DNA of 64,000 bases from a virus: the IMG/VR virus record IMGVR_UViG_3300036945_000368, positions 16,031 to 80,030 of that record. The stretch is one strand, 5' to 3'. Shown piece after piece: positions 4,640 through 60,208 of this stretch. The position numbers were made by a program, and so were the translations under genes. The notes below the pieces were generated by a model. The model had not been told where the DNA came from. It saw only the letters and a program-made list of their open reading frames with translations, and did not search any database. Position 1 is the stretch's first letter, and each line of letters begins with the position of its first letter.

Positions 4640-5674
4640 ATGTCAGAACGTCAATTAGCAACAATCCGTAAAATCGCTGCATTAGAACCTATTGAAGGCG
4701 CAGATGCAATCGAAGTAGCCGTAGTCGATGGTTGGAAAGTGGTAGTAAAAAAGGGGGAGTTTGCTGTAAATCAGTTAGCGGTATATTTCGAATTGGATGC
4801 GTGGATTCCAACAGAACTAGCGCCGTTCTTATCCAAAGGTAAAGAACCTCGTGCTTTCGAAGGTATCCGTGGTGAACGCCTACGTACAGTTAAACTACGT
4901 GGTCAAATCAGCCAAGGCTTGTTACTGCCTTATATTGAAACCTTAACTGTTGAACATGAAGGTAATACAGGCATTGGCGATTGGAAAGAAGGTGATGACG
5001 TTACAGAAGCCTTAGGTATTAAAAAGTGGGAGCGTCCTATGAATGCTCAACTTGCAGGTATGGCACGAGGCAATTTCCCTGCATTAGTACCAAAGACTGA
5101 CCAAGCACGTATTCAAAACCTTACTCGTGATTTTGAGAAGTTGCAGGAAGATACGTGGTCCATTACCGAAAAGCTTGATGGTTCGTCTTGCACTTTCTAT
5201 TTGGATTCAGAAGGTGAATTTCACGTATGCAGTCGCAATCTAGACTTGAAACCTGACGAGGTAAATACCTTTTGGAAACTTGCCTTGCAATTGGATATCG
5301 AAGCTGTTATGCGCCGACATAGCCTATTAGGTATGGCTATTCAAGGTGAAATGATCGGTGAAGGTATTCAAGGTAATCAGTACAAGACAAGGCTTGACTT
5401 TTACGTTTACGACATGTACAATACAAGTACTGGCGAGTACATCTTGCCAATTCAGCTTGAAGCTGCATGTAAACGTTTAGGTTTAAAGCACGTACCTATT
5501 ATTGCATCCAACACCGATATCAAAGAACAGACAATTGAATCTATTTTGCAATTTGCAGAAGGTAAGTCTCAATTGAATGGTAGTGAGAGGGAAGGTTTGG
5601 TCTTTAAGAGTAGTACTGTACATTACTTAAGTTTTAAAGCTGTGAGTAATCGTTGGCTCATGAAATATGAATAA
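4640..5674 (+). CDS. RNA ligase, DRB0094/Rnl5-like
   Basis: 344 residues. The N-terminal 100-120 residues form an OB-like domain, and the nucleotidyltransferase domain begins near 150 with motif I TEKLDGSS (lysine 178). Then come motif III FYVYDMY, motif IV EGLVFKS and a motif V-like SFKAVSNRWL. An N-terminal OB domain before the ligase core is the layout of the Deinococcus DRB0094 RNA ligase family, which seals 3'-OH/5'-phosphate ends. With about ten tRNA genes in this genome, repair of cut tRNA is a reasonable guess, but no kinase/phosphatase partner is visible. AAGGAG precedes the start. Confidence 0.85.
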   Translation: MSERQLATIRKIAALEPIEGADAIEVAVVDGWKVVVKKGEFAVNQLAVYFELDAWIPTELAPFLSKGKEPRAFEGIRGERLRTVKLRGQISQGLLLPYIETLTVEHEGNTGIGDWKEGDDVTEALGIKKWERPMNAQLAGMARGNFPALVPKTDQARIQNLTRDFEKLQEDTWSITEKLDGSSCTFYLDSEGEFHVCSRNLDLKPDEVNTFWKLALQLDIEAVMRRHSLLGMAIQGEMIGEGIQGNQYKTRLDFYVYDMYNTSTGEYILPIQLEAACKRLGLKHVPIIASNTDIKEQTIESILQFAEGKSQLNGSEREGLVFKSSTVHYLSFKAVSNRWLMKYE

Positions 5675-5682
5675 GGAGTAGA

Positions 5683-7416
5683 ATGGCATTATTCGTTAAG
5701 CATACGAATTGCGAAAAATGTGGAAGTTCTAATGGCAATGCTATCTATAACGATGGCAGTCATTATTGTTGGGTATGTCAAGATAAAACACTAAGCGAAG
5801 ATTATAAGGCCCAACTTGATTCTAAAAAGCGCAAGGGTAAAGTTAAAAAAGTAAAGGAAGTTGAAGATATGGAAGTTAAACCTAGCACTAAACCTGCTCT
5901 GACTAAAGAAGAAAACCAAGAGTTCAAATCAGAAACCTCTGCAACAGGCAAGGGTTTTAGAGGCATTCGTGACGAGTTTAATAAGCAGTTCGGTGTACGC
6001 TATTCCTTTTCAGAAGAGACAGGCGAAGTAGTTGAACAAGCTTACCCATGTACTCAAGCTGGTGAATTAGTTGGTTACAAGATTCGTGAAGTGCCAAAGA
6101 ATTTTTACTCTAAGGCTCGTACTGGTGCTGACTGTGATTTATTCATGCAGTTCAAGTTTAACCGTGGTGGGCGTTATGTTATTATTACTGAAGGTGAAGT
6201 AGATGCGTTATCTGCGTATCAAATGCTTTCTGATTATAATAAAGAACGTAAGAGTGAATATGAAATTGCCGTAGTAAGTCCAACGACAGGTGCTAGTTCA
6301 CACAAGCAAATCGCAGGACAGTATAAGTTCTTTGATACGTTTGAACAGATTGTTGTTTCATACGACAATGACAAAGCTGGTCAAGCTGCTATTGAGAATA
6401 TCGTCAAGGTTTTACCTAAGGGTAAAGTCAAGATTATGTCTATGCGTTTTAAGGATGCAAACGAGTACTTAGAGAAGGGTGAAGAGAAGGCTTTTATTAG
6501 TGACTTCTACAACGCTAAGACCTACGTACCAGTTGGTGTATTACCTTCTAGCGGTTTGTATGATCGTATCTTGAATCAATCTTCAATAGCTAAAATTCCA
6601 TTCCCACCTTTTATGGGGCAATTGAATGAGCTGTTTATTGGTGGTATGCCATTAGGACATATTATCAACATTGCTGCAGATACTGGCATCGGTAAAACTA
6701 CTCTGGTAAATGAAATGATTTACTATTGGGTATTTAATTCTCCACACATGATTGGTATTGTTTCTATGGAACTTGATGCTGGTCAATATGGTGAAGCTTT
6801 ATTATCTCGACATATTGAAAAGAAGTTAGCTCTTATTCCGACACAGGAAGAGAAATTAGCGTTCTTACAATCTGACCGAGTTAGAGCGCAAGCTGACGAA
6901 TTAATGCTCGATTCCAGTGGTAATTCACGCTTCTATTTGCTAGATAACCGTGATGGTTCAGTGGACGATATTAAAGATACTATCGAAGAGTTAGTTGTAG
7001 GTTGTGGTGCTAAGGTTATTGTCTTAGACCCGTTACAAGATATCTTAGATGGTTTAGGTAATGAAGAGCAAGCTGAGTTCATGAAGTGGGCTAAGGGCTT
7101 TATGAAAAGCCATAGCGTTACGTTCGTATTCATTAACCACATGCGTAAAACACCTGCTGGTCAAAATGGAGCCGATAGCGAACAAAACATTATGGGTTCA
7201 AGTACCATTATCAAATCTGCATCTGCTAACATCTTGTTGAAACGAGACAAAATGGCAGAAGACGAGTTGACACGTAATAGCACAGAAATCAGTGTAACTA
7301 AGAACCGTGTATGCGGTTTGACAGGTCCAGCTGGTTCTATCTACTACGACAACAACACGCATACATTGCACAACCTGAAAGATTGGATGCAAGCAAACGT
7401 AAGCGATGTCAGGTAA
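5683..7416 (+). CDS. T7 gp4-like DNA primase-helicase
   Basis: 577 residues. The N-terminal zinc-binding domain has CEKC near residue 10 and CWVC near 30. A TOPRIM primase core (EGEVDALS; YDNDKAG) follows in residues 60-280. The C-terminal RecA-type helicase has Walker A (DTGIGKTT) near residue 333 and a DPLQDIL Walker B region. This is the bifunctional primase-helicase layout of T7-like phages: it unwinds DNA and primes the lagging strand. It lies directly upstream of the polymerase gene. Confidence 0.93.
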   Translation: MALFVKHTNCEKCGSSNGNAIYNDGSHYCWVCQDKTLSEDYKAQLDSKKRKGKVKKVKEVEDMEVKPSTKPALTKEENQEFKSETSATGKGFRGIRDEFNKQFGVRYSFSEETGEVVEQAYPCTQAGELVGYKIREVPKNFYSKARTGADCDLFMQFKFNRGGRYVIITEGEVDALSAYQMLSDYNKERKSEYEIAVVSPTTGASSHKQIAGQYKFFDTFEQIVVSYDNDKAGQAAIENIVKVLPKGKVKIMSMRFKDANEYLEKGEEKAFISDFYNAKTYVPVGVLPSSGLYDRILNQSSIAKIPFPPFMGQLNELFIGGMPLGHIINIAADTGIGKTTLVNEMIYYWVFNSPHMIGIVSMELDAGQYGEALLSRHIEKKLALIPTQEEKLAFLQSDRVRAQADELMLDSSGNSRFYLLDNRDGSVDDIKDTIEELVVGCGAKVIVLDPLQDILDGLGNEEQAEFMKWAKGFMKSHSVTFVFINHMRKTPAGQNGADSEQNIMGSSTIIKSASANILLKRDKMAEDELTRNSTEISVTKNRVCGLTGPAGSIYYDNNTHTLHNLKDWMQANVSDVR

Positions 7417-7477: not shown

Positions 7478-9769
7478 ATGCGTTTTATTATCGACATTGA
7501 GAGTACAAATCTTTTACAAAACGGTTTAGATTACTCTGTAATGCCTTATGCACTGAAGCCTGATTACAAGGTATGGTGTGTTGTCATCCGTAACCTAGAT
7601 ACTAAGGCCGTGATTTCATTGGTTAAAGAAGAGATCACTAAGGAACGTATTCAGCATATCCTACGCGACTGCACCGAAATTATCGGTCATAACATTGTGG
7701 CCTTCGACTTGCCAGTGCTTAAGCTGTATGGTGTTATGGAGTATCGTGTAGGTTATCCAGATCAACCATCTACAGTGTTCGGCATCCCTTGTAAGATTAC
7801 CGACACGCTATTATGGTCAAAATTGCTCAGTCCTGATCGTTTTGGTGGACATAGCCTTGATGCATGGGGTAAGCGTTTAGGTAACCACAAAACTCACTTT
7901 GAAGAATGGGACCGTTTTTCTCAGGAGATGCTGGATTACTGTATTCAAGATACAAGCGTCAACGAGACTGTGCATTATGAGTTGATTGAAGAGCAAGGCG
8001 ATCATCCTTGGGACCGCGCATACTCTGTTGAAGTTAAACTCACAGATTTAACACTACGTCAAGAGTTATTCGGCTTTGATTTTAACGTACAACTGGCAGA
8101 GCAAAACCTTGCAGAGCTTAACAAGATGATGCAAGATATCGCTGTAAAAGTTGACCCACTGTTGCCAAAGAAGCGCATGTCTAAGGTAGCTGCAAGCTTC
8201 TACGAGTTACCTAAGATTAGATTTAAAAAGAACGGTGATGTATCATCTAACTTGCTCAAGTTCTGTGAAAAGACCGGCGCTGTATTATCTGAGAATAAGG
8301 AAACGATTGTTCTCGAAGGGAAAACATTTCCGCTGAATACTGACGAACCATTAAAGACACACGTAGATGCTGACATTGAAGATATAGATGTAGTAAAGGG
8401 TTACTTGATTTCATTAGGTTGGGAACCAACAGAAGTTAAAGAACGTGACATTGTTAAGAAGACAGATAAATCAATTCGTACCTATGCGGAAATCTTAGTT
8501 GCTATTGAACGCTACGTTGCACAAACCGAAACGTCTGTATTCCGTGAGTTGCGCTTAGACTTGATTGGCTGCAGTATGAACAATCTAAAACGTTATTTAG
8601 AAGGTAAGATTGATGGTAGCAAGCCAATCTATCTACCCACTACACCGAAGCTGACAGTAGGCGTTGAAAAAGAAATCTGTCCTGCACTAATTCAGTTAGG
8701 TGAGAAAGCCGACTTCGTGAAAGATGTTGTGCATTACTACACGTACCGTCACCGCCGCAATTCAATTGCTGGTGGTGTACTGGATGAAGATGGCGACCCT
8801 GTAACTGGTTTCTTAAGTAACGTCCGTGAAGATGGTCGTATTCCTACGCCTGCAGATACTTTAGGCGCTAATACTGGTAGGTATCGTCACAAGATTGTAT
8901 GTAATGTTCCTCGTGTAACTTCGTTATATGGTGAGCAAATGCGTAACTTATTCGGCGCTGGTAAAGGGTTGTGGCAACTAGGCTATGACTTTGCATCACT
9001 AGAAGCTCGTGTAATGGGTCACTACGTATTGCCATACACTGATGGGGAAGCATTGGCTATTTCATTGATTGCAGAGAAGCCCAACGATATTCATAGTATC
9101 AACGCACGTAAATTAGGTATTGACCGTAACTCAGCGAAGTCATTTAGCTACGCTGCTATTTACGGTGCTCAACCTAAGAAGCTTGCAAAGATGCTAGGTA
9201 TTTCATTAGACGAAGCTAAGGTACTATTCAACAACTATTGGGATGCTGTACCTGCATTGAAGCAGTTAAAAGAAGACTTAGAGAAAGCATGGGTATCACG
9301 CGATAAGAAGCACATTAAAGGGTTGGATGGTCGTCTACTATCAACACGTAGTAAACACAGCCTTATTAACGTTCTATTTCAATCTGGCGGTGCTATTGCT
9401 GCTAAGTGGTCTGCTGTTCGTTTAGCTCAAGCTATGGAAGAGCGTGGTATCTTGGGTGACCCGTTTGTTAACGATAAAACCGAAGCTAAGGTGTGGTGGT
9501 TGATTCACATGCATGACGAACAACAAATGGCTTGTCACCCTTCATTGATGCAAGTTAAGAGTTTTGCTACCGATGATGAAGCTAAGGCTGCACTATGCGA
9601 AGGTTCTAGTGCAATTGGTCACGGTTCTAAGGGGGCATATGTTGGTTTTAAGACACAGCCAGTTGAGTGCATTGATATCGGTATCAAGCAAGCGGTTAAG
9701 GAGTTAGGTTTAAGAGTTGAGTTAGGCTTTGAGTGGATACCCGGTATGTCTTGGGGACAATGCCATTGA
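7478..9769 (+). CDS. DNA polymerase, family A, T7 gp5-like
   Basis: 763 residues with an N-terminal 3'-5' exonuclease domain (motif I DIESTN with D6 and E8; motif II NIVAFDLPVL; motif III YCIQDTS) and a C-terminal polymerase domain. Polymerase motif A is DFASLEARV, motif B is RNSAKSFSYAAIYG and motif C is HMHDEQQ. In motif B a tyrosine sits where T7 polymerase has Tyr526. This is the replicative polymerase. T7 uses host thioredoxin as clamp; a small thioredoxin-like gene lies at 21503-21748, but a partnership is only a guess. AAAGGAAG precedes the start. Confidence 0.95.
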   Translation: MRFIIDIESTNLLQNGLDYSVMPYALKPDYKVWCVVIRNLDTKAVISLVKEEITKERIQHILRDCTEIIGHNIVAFDLPVLKLYGVMEYRVGYPDQPSTVFGIPCKITDTLLWSKLLSPDRFGGHSLDAWGKRLGNHKTHFEEWDRFSQEMLDYCIQDTSVNETVHYELIEEQGDHPWDRAYSVEVKLTDLTLRQELFGFDFNVQLAEQNLAELNKMMQDIAVKVDPLLPKKRMSKVAASFYELPKIRFKKNGDVSSNLLKFCEKTGAVLSENKETIVLEGKTFPLNTDEPLKTHVDADIEDIDVVKGYLISLGWEPTEVKERDIVKKTDKSIRTYAEILVAIERYVAQTETSVFRELRLDLIGCSMNNLKRYLEGKIDGSKPIYLPTTPKLTVGVEKEICPALIQLGEKADFVKDVVHYYTYRHRRNSIAGGVLDEDGDPVTGFLSNVREDGRIPTPADTLGANTGRYRHKIVCNVPRVTSLYGEQMRNLFGAGKGLWQLGYDFASLEARVMGHYVLPYTDGEALAISLIAEKPNDIHSINARKLGIDRNSAKSFSYAAIYGAQPKKLAKMLGISLDEAKVLFNNYWDAVPALKQLKEDLEKAWVSRDKKHIKGLDGRLLSTRSKHSLINVLFQSGGAIAAKWSAVRLAQAMEERGILGDPFVNDKTEAKVWWLIHMHDEQQMACHPSLMQVKSFATDDEAKAALCEGSSAIGHGSKGAYVGFKTQPVECIDIGIKQAVKELGLRVELGFEWIPGMSWGQCH

Positions 9770-12225: not shown

Positions 12226-12879
12226 ATGAGTTTCAACAGAGAAAAAATTTCTGGTATGTTAGTTTACGTTTCCGTTAATGAGGCTAAGAAAGCACTGCAA
12301 AAAGCTGGCGCTCCAAAGAAGCCAGATGAATGGAAAGCAAGCGTAGTAATTACCGATGAAGATTATGCAGATGATTTAGAAGCATATGCAAAAGAACTAG
12401 ATACGATGATTTCCCTCAAGAAAGTCAAACGTACTGAGTTCGAAAATATCTACAAGGTAGCACCTCCTGAAGGTGATGGAAAGAACGTATGGGTCTTTAC
12501 ATTACGCAAGAGTACTGAGCTTGGTAAAACTGGTAAACCAGTACCTGAACTCTATCAACCAAAAGCATTCGAAAAAGTCGGTAAAACACTAGTCGATATT
12601 ACGCATTCTAAATTAGTCGGTAATGGTTCATACGGTTCTATTAGCGTAGATAAGTTTGAACGTCAAACTGGTGGTGCATCATTGTTCTTAAAGAACGTTT
12701 TAGTAACAGACTTAGTTGAGTACACTCAAGCTGAGAGTAATTACCAAGCTGGTTCTGAGTTTGATGATGAAGCTGATGGTGACGATACCCCTGCAGAGAA
12801 GCCAGCTAAAGCAGCTGCTAAACCTGCTAAGGCTAAAGTCGCTAAAGAAGCTGCAGAGGATGATGACACACCATTCTAA
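12226..12879 (+). CDS. ssb: single-stranded DNA-binding protein, T7 gp2.5-like
   Basis: 217 residues: an N-terminal OB-like domain of about 165 residues, then an acidic and A/K-rich linker ending DDDTPF. The acidic tail with terminal aromatic residue is the hallmark of phage and bacterial SSBs and docks replication partners. The position in a T7-type replication block supports the call. It is expressed from a consensus promoter and closed by a terminator, a one-gene unit suited to high output. AAGGAG precedes ATG 12226. Confidence 0.85.
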   Translation: MSFNREKISGMLVYVSVNEAKKALQKAGAPKKPDEWKASVVITDEDYADDLEAYAKELDTMISLKKVKRTEFENIYKVAPPEGDGKNVWVFTLRKSTELGKTGKPVPELYQPKAFEKVGKTLVDITHSKLVGNGSYGSISVDKFERQTGGASLFLKNVLVTDLVEYTQAESNYQAGSEFDDEADGDDTPAEKPAKAAAKPAKAKVAKEAAEDDDTPF

Positions 12880-23308: not shown

Positions 23309-24544
23309 TTACTCTCCGATTAATTTTGCTATTAGTCTCTCTAATTGAGAAATTCGTTTATCTTGCTCTACAACTCTTTCGGCTAACTTAACAGCAGATA
23401 CCATAGCAGCATTACCATAAGCAACAGATAATTTGCCATCAGCTCCCTCGATAATGGCATTCGGCAGAAAAGTTCGTAAGGATTGAGCCCCAACTCCAAC
23501 CTGTGTTTTATTTTCACAGTCTAGCCGATCATAAATTCCATGCTTTACTTTAGCTAGTTGCTCAATATAATCTACTGGAAGTTCACGCCAATTAGTTTTT
23601 AAAGTCTCGTCTGAGAATGCTGTAATGTCACCACCTGATATAAAGTTAGCATTATTATATGTCCTAACATTACCAGCTTCAGTTGCATGAATACCTACGG
23701 CATAAGTTTCATTATACCAGCCAGTATCACCTGTTGATCTGTGCCAGTTAGGGCAACTAAAGGAACCTGCATATAACCAGTCAGAAGATGGGTTACAGTA
23801 AATTCCTCCTGTAGCATATACACCATTACCAGAGCCCCAAAGCATTTGGTAAGTGCTATTAGAGTCATTACTATAGTTGATAACTACGCTACCAGCCGTG
23901 CCACTAATAGAGCCTTGAATCTGATTATTAAAAGTTTTAGTGCCTCCAATAGTTTGATCACCGGATGTGTACACTCCATTAGTAACGCTACCAGCGTTAC
24001 CTGAAATACTACCTGTAATTTGATTACTAAAAGTTTTAGTGCCTCCAATAGTTTGATCACCAACTGTGTAGACACCGTTAGTAACACTACCAGCATTACC
24101 TGAAATAGTACCGGTAATTTGACTACTAAAAGTTTTTGCACCTCCAATAGTCTGAGTACCTGTAGTATATACACCATTAGTGACAGTACCAGCATTACCT
24201 GAAATATCCCCACTAATCTGGCTACTGAAGGTTTTTACACCTCCAATAGTTTGAGTACCAGTGGTATATACACCATTGGTTACAGTTGCAGCATTACCTG
24301 AAATGTTAATACCGTATAAGTCATTTGTAACTAAGTCAACCCAAGTTGAACCGTTCCATTTACGCCACTTATTATTTTGGCTACTCCACCCAATAGAATC
24401 TACCGGAAGGTTACTAATAGTTGGGTCGCCTGATGGAGATTTAGCAGGGTCCAAACCTCTTGCTAAATCATCAAAGCGATTATCCAACTCTTGTACGAAA
24501 TTTATATACCCACTCGTTTGAGTAGGTAAACTATGATTTGCCAT
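23309..24544 (-). CDS. tail fibre with S74 intramolecular chaperone domain
   Basis: 411 residues. An N-terminal 80-residue attachment part (DNRFDDLARGLDP, WRKWNGSTWVDL), then four 33-residue repeats of the type SGNAGTVTNGVYTTGTQTIGG plus a partial fifth, then a receptor-region stretch. The C-terminal S74 domain is SDETLKTNW...VGVGAQSL and ends in a coiled coil. S74 domains fold the trimer and then cut themselves off at the Ser-Asp. It follows the tail-tip gene by 3 bases and probably is attached to it. Confidence 0.88.
   Translation of the reverse strand: MANHSLPTQTSGYINFVQELDNRFDDLARGLDPAKSPSGDPTISNLPVDSIGWSSQNNKWRKWNGSTWVDLVTNDLYGINISGNAATVTNGVYTTGTQTIGGVKTFSSQISGDISGNAGTVTNGVYTTGTQTIGGAKTFSSQITGTISGNAGSVTNGVYTVGDQTIGGTKTFSNQITGSISGNAGSVTNGVYTSGDQTIGGTKTFNNQIQGSISGTAGSVVINYSNDSNSTYQMLWGSGNGVYATGGIYCNPSSDWLYAGSFSCPNWHRSTGDTGWYNETYAVGIHATEAGNVRTYNNANFISGGDITAFSDETLKTNWRELPVDYIEQLAKVKHGIYDRLDCENKTQVGVGAQSLRTFLPNAIIEGADGKLSVAYGNAAMVSAVKLAERVVEQDKRISQLERLIAKLIGE
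23880..24306 (-). repeat. tandem 99-bp coding repeats in the fibre gene
   Basis: Four near-identical units of 33 codons, plus a shorter fifth, encode GNAG-VTNGVYT-G-QTIGG-KTF--QI. Such arrays can gain or lose units by slippage and so change fibre length. Confidence 0.85.
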
Positions 24545-53537: not shown

Positions 53538-53882
53538 TTATTCTTCTCCAACAACCTTTAAGCTAAAGATTGGAGCATTTTGTTGCTGAATTTCAGTGCC
53601 CTCTACATCTTCAGCATCTTCGCTATCGTATACATCTAATGTAAGTCTACGGTAGTTGTCAAGTAAAATAGTAGCTGCTTTTAGTTGGTTCTGATGACTC
53701 GCTTCTTTATTCTGCATAATTTCAGCAGCTGAAGTGATAGCTTTAGCAACGTGTGGCTTAATCTTACGAAGAAGCATAATTAATTCACGTTCTTTTAAAT
53801 CACGATTAGTTGGTTTATCTAATGCACTGACCTTTTTAGGACGACCATTGGGATTACCCGATTTACCTTTTTCAAATGCCAT
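53538..53882 (-). CDS. terminase small subunit (likely)
   Basis: 114 residues. The N-terminus FEKGKSGNPNGRPKKVS is the signature of small-terminase-like proteins of the KGxSGNPxGRP type, followed by a helical core and an acidic C-terminus. It would recognise the packaging site on DNA. Separated from terL by the HNH gene and a GTAAGT/ACTTAC hairpin at 53491-53507. Confidence 0.72.
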   Translation of the reverse strand: MAFEKGKSGNPNGRPKKVSALDKPTNRDLKERELIMLLRKIKPHVAKAITSAAEIMQNKEASHQNQLKAATILLDNYRRLTLDVYDSEDAEDVEGTEIQQQNAPIFSLKVVGEE

Positions 53883-57133: not shown

Positions 57134-57211
57134 TGGTCCGTTCTGTAGGATTCGAACCTACGATATCTTGGCCCCAAACCAAGTGACTTAACCAGACTAG
57201 CCTAAAAACGG
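57134..57211 (-). tRNA. tRNA-Pro(UGG)
   Basis: Acceptor CCGTTTT/AGAACGG, anticodon stem CTTGG/CCAAG with loop TTTGGGG (anticodon TGG), T-arm GTAGG-TTCGAAT-CCTAC, encoded CCA. Last tRNA of the cluster in transcription order. Confidence 0.92.
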
Positions 57212-57219
57212 AATTGTAT

Positions 57220-57309
57220 TGGCGGGTAGTGTAGGATTTGAACCTACGGGTCACGTAAGTAACCTAAGGGTTAGCAACCCTCTGCAATCGGCCTCTCTGC
57301 CAACCACCC
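57220..57309 (-). tRNA. tRNA-Ser(GCU)
   Basis: Acceptor GGGTGGT/ACTACCC, anticodon stem GAGGG/CCCTT with loop TTGCTAA (anticodon GCT), a long variable arm as in all serine tRNAs, T-loop TTCAAAT, encoded CCA. Confidence 0.92.
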
Positions 57310-57361
57310 TTATTGGTGGACAACAATGGCTTAGTAGCAGCCTATCATCGCCCATAACTTG

Positions 57362-57434
57362 CTGACCTACGTGGCCTCGAACCACGGGCATCGAAATTAA
57401 CAGTTTCGCGCTCTACCGACTGAGCTATATGCCA
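57362..57434 (-). tRNA. tRNA-Asn(GUU)
   Basis: D-arm GCTC/GAGC, anticodon stem CGAAA/TTTCG with loop CTGTTAA (anticodon GTT), T-arm CGTGG-TTCGAGG-CCACG. The acceptor TGGCATA/TAGGTCA has one mismatch. The 3' end reads GCAA, so CCA must be added after transcription, unlike most neighbours. Confidence 0.88.
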
Positions 57435-57442
57435 ATATTTAA

Positions 57443-57543
57443 TTGTAGCAGGCTGCACACAAGCATTAAAGTTGCGCTTCGATATTTAACGGCATTTAAG
57501 CTTCCGCAACACCCTTTACCCTAGCTCCAGTCTACGGCTACAA
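57443..57543 (-). ncRNA. unassigned RNA closed by a 7-bp stem within the tRNA cluster
   Basis: Between tRNA-Tyr and tRNA-Asn, a 101-base segment is closed by TTGTAGC/GCTACAA. It contains GTTGCG/CGCAAC and GCTT/AAGC arms. It starts three bases after the CCA of tRNA-Tyr. I could not fit it to a tRNA cloverleaf. It is probably processed out with the tRNAs; identity unknown. Confidence 0.5.
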
Positions 57544-57546
57544 AAT

Positions 57547-57632
57547 TGGTGGACACCCTAGGTAACGCTCCTAGCGAGTGCATAGACAACGGTTTTACAG
57601 ACCGCTTCGCCTCTTTAACGAAATATGTGTCC
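57547..57632 (-). tRNA. tRNA-Tyr(GUA) with unusual T-loop
   Basis: Acceptor GGACACA/GGTGTCC (last pair A-G), D-stem TTCG/CGAA, anticodon loop CTGTAAA (anticodon GTA) on a GCGGT/ACCGT stem, long variable region as in bacterial tRNA-Tyr, encoded CCA. The T-stem CTAGG/CCTAG holds AGCGTTA, not TTCRANY. This is the same loop as in the Met-like gene at 12044. Confidence 0.75.
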
Positions 57633-57637
57633 TTGTT

Positions 57638-57712
57638 TGGTACTGCATGGGAGAATCGAACTCCCCTTGCTCGGATGAAAACCGAGTGTCCTAACCGATG
57701 GACGAATGCAGT
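57638..57712 (-). tRNA. tRNA-Glu(UUC)
   Basis: Acceptor ACTGCAT/ATGCAGT, D-arm GTCC/GGAC, anticodon stem CTCGG/CCGAG with loop TTTTCAT (anticodon TTC), T-arm GGGAG-TTCGATT-CTCCC, encoded CCA. Confidence 0.93.
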
Positions 57713-57717
57713 ATTTT

Positions 57718-57793
57718 TGGTACGGAGAACTGGGCTTGAACCAGTGACATTTGCCTTATCAAGACAACGCTCTACCAACTGAGCTATCTCCGC
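57718..57793 (-). tRNA. tRNA-Ile(GAU)
   Basis: Acceptor GCGGAGA/TCTCCGT, D-arm GCTC/GAGC, anticodon stem TTGTC/GGCAA with loop TTGATAA (anticodon GAT), T-arm ACTGG-TTCAAGC-CCAGT, encoded CCA. It begins two bases after the HNH gene stop. Confidence 0.93.
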
Positions 57794-57794
57794 A

Positions 57795-58100
57795 TTATTT
57801 TGAGTAGTGCTCAATAGCGTGGCAATTTGCACACAAGATTTCGCATTTATCTATCTCTTCTTTTAATTTTTTCAAAGACCACGATCTTGCAACAGTAGCA
57901 ATAGTTGCCTCTTTTGTTGTTGGGTCAGTGTGATGAAACTGTAAGGCAGCTGGATGTGAAAAACCGCACCTAGTACATTTTAATGTTTTCTTAAATTCTA
58001 GATACTCCGCTTGACGTTTGTCCTTCCATGCTTTGTTTAAAGCATTGCGTTTCTCTCTATTATTTTGTGCCCATTCTCTGTGGTACTCTTTTGTTGTCAT
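57795..58100 (-). CDS. small HNH endonuclease inside the tRNA cluster
   Basis: 101 residues: a basic N-terminal helix (YHREWAQNNREKRNALNKAWKDKRQ), CTRCGFSHPAALQFHH, then CEILCANCHAIEH, the complete zinc-HNH pattern of small free-standing nucleases. It splits tRNA-Thr from tRNA-Ile. It is unlike the two long HNH proteins and so is a separate arrival. Confidence 0.88.
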   Translation of the reverse strand: MTTKEYHREWAQNNREKRNALNKAWKDKRQAEYLEFKKTLKCTRCGFSHPAALQFHHTDPTTKEATIATVARSWSLKKLKEEIDKCEILCANCHAIEHYSK

Positions 58101-58137
58101 ATATTACCATAAATAAAGATTACAAAGTTTATTGTAT

Positions 58138-58211
58138 TGGTGCTGGATGAATGAATCGAACACTCATCACTGGACTACAAAACCAGTATTCTACCATTGA
58201 ACTAATCCAGC
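58138..58211 (-). tRNA. tRNA-Thr(UGU)
   Basis: Acceptor GCTGGAT/ATCCAGC, D-arm GTTC/GAAT, anticodon stem CTGGT/TCCAG (last pair T-T) with loop TTTGTAG (anticodon TGT), T-arm GAGTG-TTCGATT-CATTC, encoded CCA. Shifting the loop by one base gives a Gln-like reading, but the 5-7-5 arm length favours Thr. Confidence 0.8.
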
Positions 58212-58214
58212 AAT

Positions 58215-58318
58215 TTAGTAGACTTCTGACTTTTGGTGTCTACGACCTCAGTAGCGTTAGATTAAGCTACGAGCCTTCGGCTTATGCCTGTTGTGTTCGC
58301 TATTCGGAAATAGCCAAC
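58215..58318 (-). other. hairpin-rich spacer between tRNA-Met and tRNA-Thr
   Basis: Inverted repeats in a row on either strand: GTAGAC/GTCTAC, GTAGC-(one bulged base)-TTA/TAAGCTAC with loop GAT, AGCC/GGCT and CTATT/AATAG. No reading frame and no cloverleaf. It may be an RNA processed from the tRNA transcript, or a set of processing signals. Confidence 0.45.
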
Positions 58319-58323
58319 GAATA

Positions 58324-58397
58324 TGGATGCGGGTGACAGATTCGAACTGCCGATGCTCCGAGCTTATGAGACTGGAGTGGTGACCGCCCTACCCGCA
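58324..58397 (-). tRNA. tRNA-Met(CAU), atypical D-arm and anticodon stem
   Basis: Acceptor TGCGGGT/ACCCGCA, T-arm GGCAG-TTCGAAT-CTGTC with canonical loop, encoded CCA, anticodon loop CTCATAA (anticodon CAT). The D-region is short (GGG/CTC at best), and the anticodon stem CTCCAGT/GCTCGGAG needs a bulged base. It could be elongator Met or Ile2. First tRNA of the cluster. Confidence 0.72.
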
Positions 58398-58997: not shown

Positions 58998-59477
58998 TTA
59001 GTCGAACACACAGTACTTACTGAGTATCTTAGCGTACTTTAATTGTAGCTTATTATATAACCTACGTACAACTACGATATCTTGTACGACTAGCACTCTA
59101 TCCTTACCATCTTCTCTCCAGCTTAGGGTATAACTGAACATATCTTGATAGTGCGGTACTATCCGTAAAGCACCGCCTAAGTTACGTTGTGCTTCCTTGA
59201 TAGTGTTAAAAGTTTTCCTAGTGACTAAACGTAAGTTCTGCAACCTATAGTCATTGTAATCAAGATTACGGTGCAGCACTACTTTATCTTTTGGCACAAT
59301 CAAGTCATTACCCAACTCTATAGCTACCCTGTTAGCTTTCATCTTGTACTTCTTACCCTTCTTGTAGAATATCAGGTAACCATCTTCGTCTGGAAATAAC
59401 CTACGATAAGGTTTAGCATCTTTCAAGATATGGAACTCACCCTCTAATGCACAGTATAGCAATAGTTCTTTTAACAT
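58998..59477 (-). CDS. HNH-like protein, 159 aa, possibly regulatory
   Basis: VVLHRNLDYNDYRLQNLRLVTRKTFN is an HNH_3-type core (H, N, N-L pattern). The N-terminal half carries beta strands (YLIFYKKGKKYKMKANRVAI) typical of such nucleases. The histidine and asparagines that hold metal are partly present, so activity is uncertain. It is directly downstream of the iteron-like repeats and could be expressed from there. AGGAT precedes the start. Confidence 0.7.
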   Translation of the reverse strand: MLKELLLYCALEGEFHILKDAKPYRRLFPDEDGYLIFYKKGKKYKMKANRVAIELGNDLIVPKDKVVLHRNLDYNDYRLQNLRLVTRKTFNTIKEAQRNLGGALRIVPHYQDMFSYTLSWREDGKDRVLVVQDIVVVRRLYNKLQLKYAKILSKYCVFD

Positions 59478-59641
59478 ATCATCCTTGTCGTTAGTAATTG
59501 ATTAGCACAACTTAATTGTTAGCACAATCTATTAGTTCTATGTGCTAGATAGATAAAGTTCATACGTAGGATTGTACTGTTGTTTTTATACAACAAACCA
59601 GTGTAAGTTTCTACAGTGAGGGAGTAAAGAGGCTGAAAGCC

Positions 59642-59681: not shown

Positions 59682-59723
59682 TACTCAGTATTATTATTTC
59701 AGTATTGCTTTCTTTCTTAATAG

Positions 59724-59787
59724 TGTGCGTTTTTCGCCATAGCTATGTGCGTTTTTCGCCATAGTACGTGTGCGTTTTTCGCCATAG
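59724..59787 (+). repeat. three 19-bp iteron-like direct repeats
   Basis: Perfect copies of TGTGCGTTTTTCGCCATAG at 59724-59742, 59746-59764 and 59769-59787. Start-to-start distances are 22 and 23 bases, close to two helical turns, which is the typical spacing of plasmid replication iterons. They lie 17 bases beyond the stop of a winged-helix gene. They may be an origin or an operator array. Confidence 0.9.
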
Positions 59788-59803
59788 TTCGAAAGTATTC
59801 ATA

Positions 59804-60208
59804 TCAGAATGGAGTGTCAGAAACAGGCAGTTCTGGCTCTGGTTTAGAGGTGTAAATGCCGTACATATCTCGCACATGATAGCTGTGAGAAATTACGGAC
59901 CTTTCTGTAGCGTAAACCTTCTTCTTAAACACGCGAAGCATGCCTAGTTCTTCTAAAGTCTTGATGCTATCACCTACGGTTCGTCTTTGCATACCTAAAG
60001 CATCTGCAATCTCTTGCATATTCTCGAAGTACTCCTTACCTAAGCCGTAAAAGAACATGTAACGGTCAAGCATAAATGAATATACTGCTTTAGCATTAGC
60101 TGTCAGGTCTTTACGTTTCATCAGTTCGTGAGAAGTCCTTACCCACGTATTTTGAGGGCGTTGTCTCTTCTCCAGCTTAACGATGTTGGTTGATTGACCT
60201 TGTTGCAC
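59804..60208 (-). CDS. winged-helix DNA-binding protein, replication-initiator-like
   Basis: 134 residues from GTG 60208, five bases behind AAGGAG; the frame upstream of it overlaps the promoter. WVRTSHELMKRKDLTANAKAVYSFMLDRYMFF and MQEIADALGMQRRTVGDSIKTLEELGMLRVF give a winged helix as in plasmid initiator or DnaD-like proteins. Neighbouring iteron-like repeats are its natural candidate site. No second winged-helix domain is present, so it is shorter than Rep_3 initiators. It could also be a simple repressor. Confidence 0.68.
   Translation of the reverse strand: MQQGQSTNIVKLEKRQRPQNTWVRTSHELMKRKDLTANAKAVYSFMLDRYMFFYGLGKEYFENMQEIADALGMQRRTVGDSIKTLEELGMLRVFKKKVYATERSVISHSYHVRDMYGIYTSKPEPELPVSDTPF

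Follow-up and report, generated by a model that had tools for sequence, protein, structure and literature searches.

The closest described counterparts of the locus analyzed here are small initiator proteins that act on short DNA repeats. RepA of the PLEs, satellites of Vibrio cholerae phages, possesses a winged-helix N-terminal domain (PDB entry 4ro3), and its iteron binding and replication with phage ICP1 have been shown experimentally (PMC7145576; PMC8263062). Its origin contains three A/T-tract-centred repeats in non-coding DNA, its DNA-binding domain covaries with its own origin, and it works with the T7-family polymerase and helicase-primase of the phage. How small initiators of this type bring a T7-like replisome to the origin is an open question (PMC7145576), and a role for the C-terminal part of PLE RepA has only been hypothesized (PMC8263062). 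The RepA_N initiators of the staphylococcal plasmids pSK41 and pTZ2162 use iterons with a central A/T tract and contact primase through their C-terminal region; an HTH_36 initiator domain has been reported for plasmid pPR9 (PMC5703833). Recruitment of replication proteins is also known from single-stranded DNA-binding proteins (SSBs), whose acidic tails (SSB-Ct; DDDIPF in Escherichia coli) serve as sites at which primase and other proteins dock (PMC5872125), and T7 gp2.5 contacts gp4 and gp5 (PMC8835902).

The DNA studied here, referred to as the window, is a stretch of 64,000 nucleotides (bases 16031-80030) from an 80,030-base IMG/VR virus record (Table 1). As the sequence-only reading had noted, it contains three perfect 19-bp direct repeats spaced by 22-23 bp, and their positions proved exact (start-to-start distances of 22 and 23 bp). 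Because the neighboring winged-helix (WH) gene is encoded on the minus strand and has its stop codon at 59804-59806, the array is located downstream of it; the claim that the array adjoins this stop held, while the gap, given as 17 bases, counts 16. The next minus-strand gene follows at a distance of about 250 bp, and the array lies upstream of it. To score such arrays, we counted the identical columns over three 18-bp copies and compared each locus with 200 shuffles. The interval between the WH gene and the HNH-like gene of the window reached 18 of 18 columns, compared to a mean of 6.6 and a maximum of 10 in the shuffles (0 of 200). Further copies of TGTGCGTTTTTCGCCATAG were found neither in the window nor in the whole record at up to three mismatches (shuffle expectation 0.01). 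The array thus has the build of an iteron origin, in which direct repeats of about 17-22 bp recur about every two helical turns. Semi-palindromy around a poly-A tract in the style of RepA_N iterons is visible in the window (GCG-TTTTT-CGC) and in the related contig L017 (GGTA...TACC; L numbers are our contig labels) but is unclear in the GGnCTAA class of repeats. The repeats of PLE RepA are longer (about 30 bp, versus 18-19 bp at 22/23 spacing here), and the origin of the pSK41 family resides inside the rep gene, whereas the array described here is downstream of the gene.

Table 1. Features of the window discussed in the text (positions are those of the window).
Feature	Positions	Strand	Remarks
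T7-type DNA primase/helicase	5683-7416	+	candidate docking partner
Family A DNA polymerase	7478-9769	+	candidate docking partner
gp2.5-like SSB	12226-12879	+	217 aa; ends AEDDDTPF
Small-terminase-like gene	53538-53882		114 aa; basis: position and GKSGNPNGRPK motif
HNH-like gene	58998-59477	-	next downstream of array
Dyad TGTTGTTTTTATACAACA	59578-59595		conserved in 8/8 WH-bearing loci with small changes
AT-rich low-stability segment	59663-59723		abuts array; candidate unwinding element; 73% AT, about 2.7th percentile of window
Two TCAGTAT elements	59685-59705	+	14 bp apart, inside AT-rich segment
Repeat 1	59724-59742	+	TGTGCGTTTTTCGCCATAG
Repeat 2	59746-59764	+	same as repeat 1
Repeat 3	59769-59787	+	same as repeat 1
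WH protein	59804-60208	-	134 aa; GTG start at 60208 with AAAGGAG site
WH C-terminal tail codons	59807-59824	-	VSDTPF; like phage SSB tail
WH recognition helix	residues 75-87	-	GMQRRTVGDSIKTLE region

Since the GTG start codon at 60208 and its AAAGGAG site are shared by the relatives of this gene, we assign 134 residues to the WH protein, and the right-hand boundary given earlier stands. Its description as an initiator-like winged helix was borne out by several searches. The best PHROG match was 'replication initiation protein' (5e-16), and the top PDB match of its profile was 4ro3 (E = 2e-4), the N-terminal domain of PLE RepA. A fold search with its AlphaFold model (mean pLDDT 75, core about 90) returned 5kbj, the Rep-DNA complex of the pSK41/pTZ2162 type, as top match with an E-value of 5e-3; 4pql, 4ro3, and 4pt7 were also listed, together with many general winged-helix regulators, all at 5e-3 or worse. 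The protein scored 37.5 bits with DUF6945 (PF22182; curated cut-off 28), a family that all eight WH proteins considered below matched at E<=1. It also passed the cut-off of HTH_36 (PF13730; 6e-6), and Pfam further gave general regulator HTH families. With the Pfam RepA_N model (PF06970), which matched control genomes weakly, the protein had no match at E<=1. These profile and fold matches to RepA-type N-terminal domains suggest that the WH protein works like a RepA-type initiator domain, yet we do not assign it to RepA_N. It differs from PLE RepA in being the phage's own protein and in carrying an SSB-like tail in place of a C-terminal domain, and the C-terminal domain of the pSK41 type is likewise absent. 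The PLE RepA domain, when used as a query in the genome collection, yielded one distant match from Aerococcus that is not a PLE.

A scan with the neighboring PhoH-like protein yielded 35 viral contigs, of which seven possess the WH gene; together with the window, this gave eight WH-bearing loci. Most of these contigs share the gene order HNH gene, WH gene (where present), short gene, and PhoH gene. One relative, Limnohabitans phage DC31, is cultured, which makes Comamonadaceae the probable hosts of these phages. In all eight WH-bearing loci, three to four repeats with a period of 22-23 bp follow directly past the WH stop codon, with scores of 11-18 of 18 columns that none of the 200 shuffles reached at any locus, and the array is the sole close site in each record. 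The 24 WH-less relatives, in which a profile search did not detect a WH protein, have no array of this type; they scored 7-12, and their excess over shuffles stems from AT-rich motifs of another kind. Most relatives replicate without the WH-array module, and the HNH-like gene next to it is kept irrespective of the presence of the WH gene. Relatives with the protein but without repeats, which the sequence-only reading had named as evidence against itself, were not found within the phage group, although the gene clusters of distant family members do without arrays: none was found beside the WH relatives of Mydovirus, KLEP7, and vibriophages. When 2.9 million viral contigs were scanned for exact matches to three full repeats (window-, L018-, and L020-type), the hits were confined to these phages. 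Paired window-type cores (GCGTTTTTCGC) added three contigs (L009-L011), which were set aside since they lack the WH gene. The DNA of the locus had no match in phage and plasmid searches.

Three repeat types are present in the eight loci, and each goes along with a particular recognition helix. Proteins with RRTV or RKTV in this helix (window, L016, L020, and L027) are found with TGTGCnnnnTTCGCCATA repeats, those with KQTV (L015, L018, and L019) with GGnCTAAnTTTCGGACTA repeats, and the KMTV protein of L017 with GGTATAAAATTTTTACCG repeats. The proteins of L020 and L027 are overall further from that of the window than the L018 protein is, yet they are found with the window repeat type. Across the eight loci, which share ancestry, repeat distance correlated with recognition-helix distance (r = 0.76, exact Mantel p = 0.0005; 0.66 when partial on the rest of the WH protein) but did not track the flanking genes (HNH gene, 0.06; PhoH gene, -0.11). 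Repeats that change in step with the recognition helix, and not with neighboring genes, argue that the WH protein very likely binds the array. The candidate initiator gene is adjacent to the array at each of the eight loci, and its recognition of the repeats is deduced from this covariation. The proposal that the repeats are iterons read by the adjacent protein consequently receives strong, sequence-based support from the co-occurrence (eight of eight loci versus none of 24), the covariation, and the homology to the N-terminal domain of PLE RepA.

In the length and phase of its repeats the array resembles plasmid iterons, and HTH_36 is the domain on which the likeness to the pPR9-type plasmid initiator rests. 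The earlier suggestions of a captured plasmid origin or of a phage-plasmid maintenance module, with the phage persisting as an episome, nevertheless appear highly improbable. The plasmid-database check, which we ran with the locus, gave neither a DNA nor a protein match among 72,556 plasmids, and no relative of the WH protein was found in 84,980 genomes. Searches of the record detected no ParA-type or tyrosine integrase family, and the WH-array module evolves at a single site inside a single phage group. Small terminases are HTH proteins and can bind repeats; on these grounds the array might be regarded as a DNA packaging (pac) site of a small terminase-like WH protein. We consider this hardly credible, since a separate gene beside the large terminase gene resembles a small terminase (the PHROG of its product carries no function), and the WH gene is located about 7 kb away from it, is missing from most relatives, and is initiator-like.

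We then turn to the DNA between the array and the HNH gene. At seven of the eight loci, no more than 24 bp separate the array from the least stable 60 bp of this interval, and these loci thereby resemble iteron origins with their adjacent AT-rich unwinding region; the exception is L020, whose least stable segment is 178 bp off. The TCAGTAT elements are identical in most WH-bearing relatives, where their spacing is 13-14 bp. An inverted repeat (AGCACA...TGTGCT) is present between the array and the HNH gene at window positions 59521-59546. The same stretch of DNA bears on the main rival to the origin reading, in which the WH protein would activate or repress transcription, with the array as an operator for the minus-strand HNH, tRNA, and structural genes or for the WH gene itself. 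Because a weak promoter-like sequence directed toward the HNH gene is located near the array, such a role has to be weighed. At five of the eight loci, this sigma-70-like sequence (e.g., TTAAGA-16-AATAAT with TG) begins 4-10 bp beyond the array, and the array is upstream of the next minus-strand gene; however, no such promoter was detected in L017 and L019, and its scores are near chance. An operator would be expected to co-occur and covary with its protein to the same degree, and the general regulator HTH families reported by Pfam would fit it as well. Furthermore, in phiPMW three dyads immediately precede the gene of the distant WH relative. Against an operator, the promoter of the WH gene itself has no copies of the repeat. 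The HNH and structural genes are retained in WH-less relatives, and regulation of transcription leaves both the SSB-like tail and the closest homology to RepA-type initiators unexplained. On balance, we regard a regulatory role as rather unlikely.

Several other elements were observed in these regions. In WH-less relatives, about 170 nt of the same interval are conserved (L021:5028-5225, minus strand; Limnohabitans phage DC31, L097; also L022, L024, L028, L030, L033, L036, and L040). The predicted consensus fold of this element has 33 pairs, four with two-sided change, at -30 kcal/mol; it is possibly a structured RNA, though covariation lends this little support. AT-rich repeats such as CTATGTTATAACCTATGT, with a spacing of about 24/36 bp, are also found there (L024:5482-5547, L026:4629-4694, and similar loci) and perhaps represent an alternative origin or control region. 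The dyads of Pseudomonas phage phiPMW (GGACAAAATGTCC; L052:2771-2839) are 33 and 23 bp apart and directly precede gp115, the distant WH relative, which is annotated as replication initiation protein. Downstream of the HNH gene of the window, seven tRNA genes are clustered on the minus strand (57134-58397), and a 99-bp repeat with 3.9 copies (23918-24304) resides within the minus-strand ORF 23309-24544. Bases 1-152 of the 80-kb record (L007:1-152) consist of 6.1 copies of a perfect 25-bp tandem repeat, which may be an assembly end or a real terminal feature.

The C-terminus of the WH protein ends like the SSB of the same phage, whose model had T7 gp2.5 and the Enc34 SSB as best matches. An acidic stretch followed by a terminal PF, as in SSB-Ct, is present in seven of the eight WH proteins; here it is attached to a candidate sequence-specific double-stranded DNA-binding protein and not to an SSB. 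The exception is the protein of L005/L016, a relative whose repeats equal those of the window, yet which lacks the PF tail. In the window's own record, the WH protein and the SSB alone carry acidic PF tails, and the same was true of three more WH-bearing records, save for one ORF ending in ...HVYPF; in one WH-less record, the SSB was the only such protein. The tail ends of WH protein and SSB agree in three of four pairs (DTPF/DTPF in the window, DSPF/DSPF in L018, and DDSPF/DDSPF in L019) and differ in L020 (EEPF in the WH protein versus DSPF in the SSB). Acidic PF tails were also observed in distant WH relatives, namely gp58 of Pseudaeromonas phage KLEP7 (L051:2917-3381; EDDNDPPF) and the L062/L063 protein (4914-5390; DDEEGLPF). 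A separate idea, that S/T as opposed to I/V/M before the PF of the SSB tail tracks the presence of the WH gene, was dropped; the phages were too few and L046 was an exception. Searches of an open-access library returned no title or abstract that describes an initiator with an SSB-like tail. The sequence-only reading had remarked that a T7-type replisome does not need iterons; it overlooked that a WH tail matching the SSB tail could offer a way to link the two.

Taken together, the array and the AT-rich segment probably constitute an iteron-type origin at which phages of this group start replication, with the WH protein as its dedicated initiator. Each A/T-tract-centred repeat would be bound by a WH recognition helix, so that three protomers or dimers, two helical turns apart, would occupy one face of the DNA and might destabilize the AT-rich segment beside the array. 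Since the acidic tail copies that of the SSB, it would dock the usual binding partners of the SSB tail: the ...DTPF end may engage the T7-like primase-helicase and/or the family A polymerase, or a host primase, and docking would bring the replisome to the origin. Binding, melting, origin activity, and tail-mediated recruitment are steps that we infer. More tentatively, and with somewhat less than even confidence, we propose that the 134-residue protein is a minimal initiator, made up of a swappable iteron-reading winged helix and an SSB-tail copy, that would exploit the replisome's docking sites for the SSB tail to load it at the origin. The origin reading is weakened by the lack of the WH-array module in most relatives, the missing PF tail in L005/L016, the tail mismatch and distant unstable segment (178 bp) of L020, the promoter-like sequence in five of eight loci, and the generic winged-helix folds with modest E-values (5e-3) in the fold search. 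GC skew tracks the direction of the genes and gives no indication of where an origin lies.

This WH family, in which a single recognition helix, array, and SSB-like tail come together, makes the question of replisome recruitment testable, and the WH-bearing phages offer naturally paired protein and repeat specificities. Our data suggest that a freshwater-type phage carries a self-contained site for starting replication, and that the protein of this site would bring in the copying machinery via the tail it shares with the SSB. If true, this would constitute a new route for the recruitment of T7-like replisomes that does without promoter transcription, and it would represent an origin module that members of one phage group have gained or lost.
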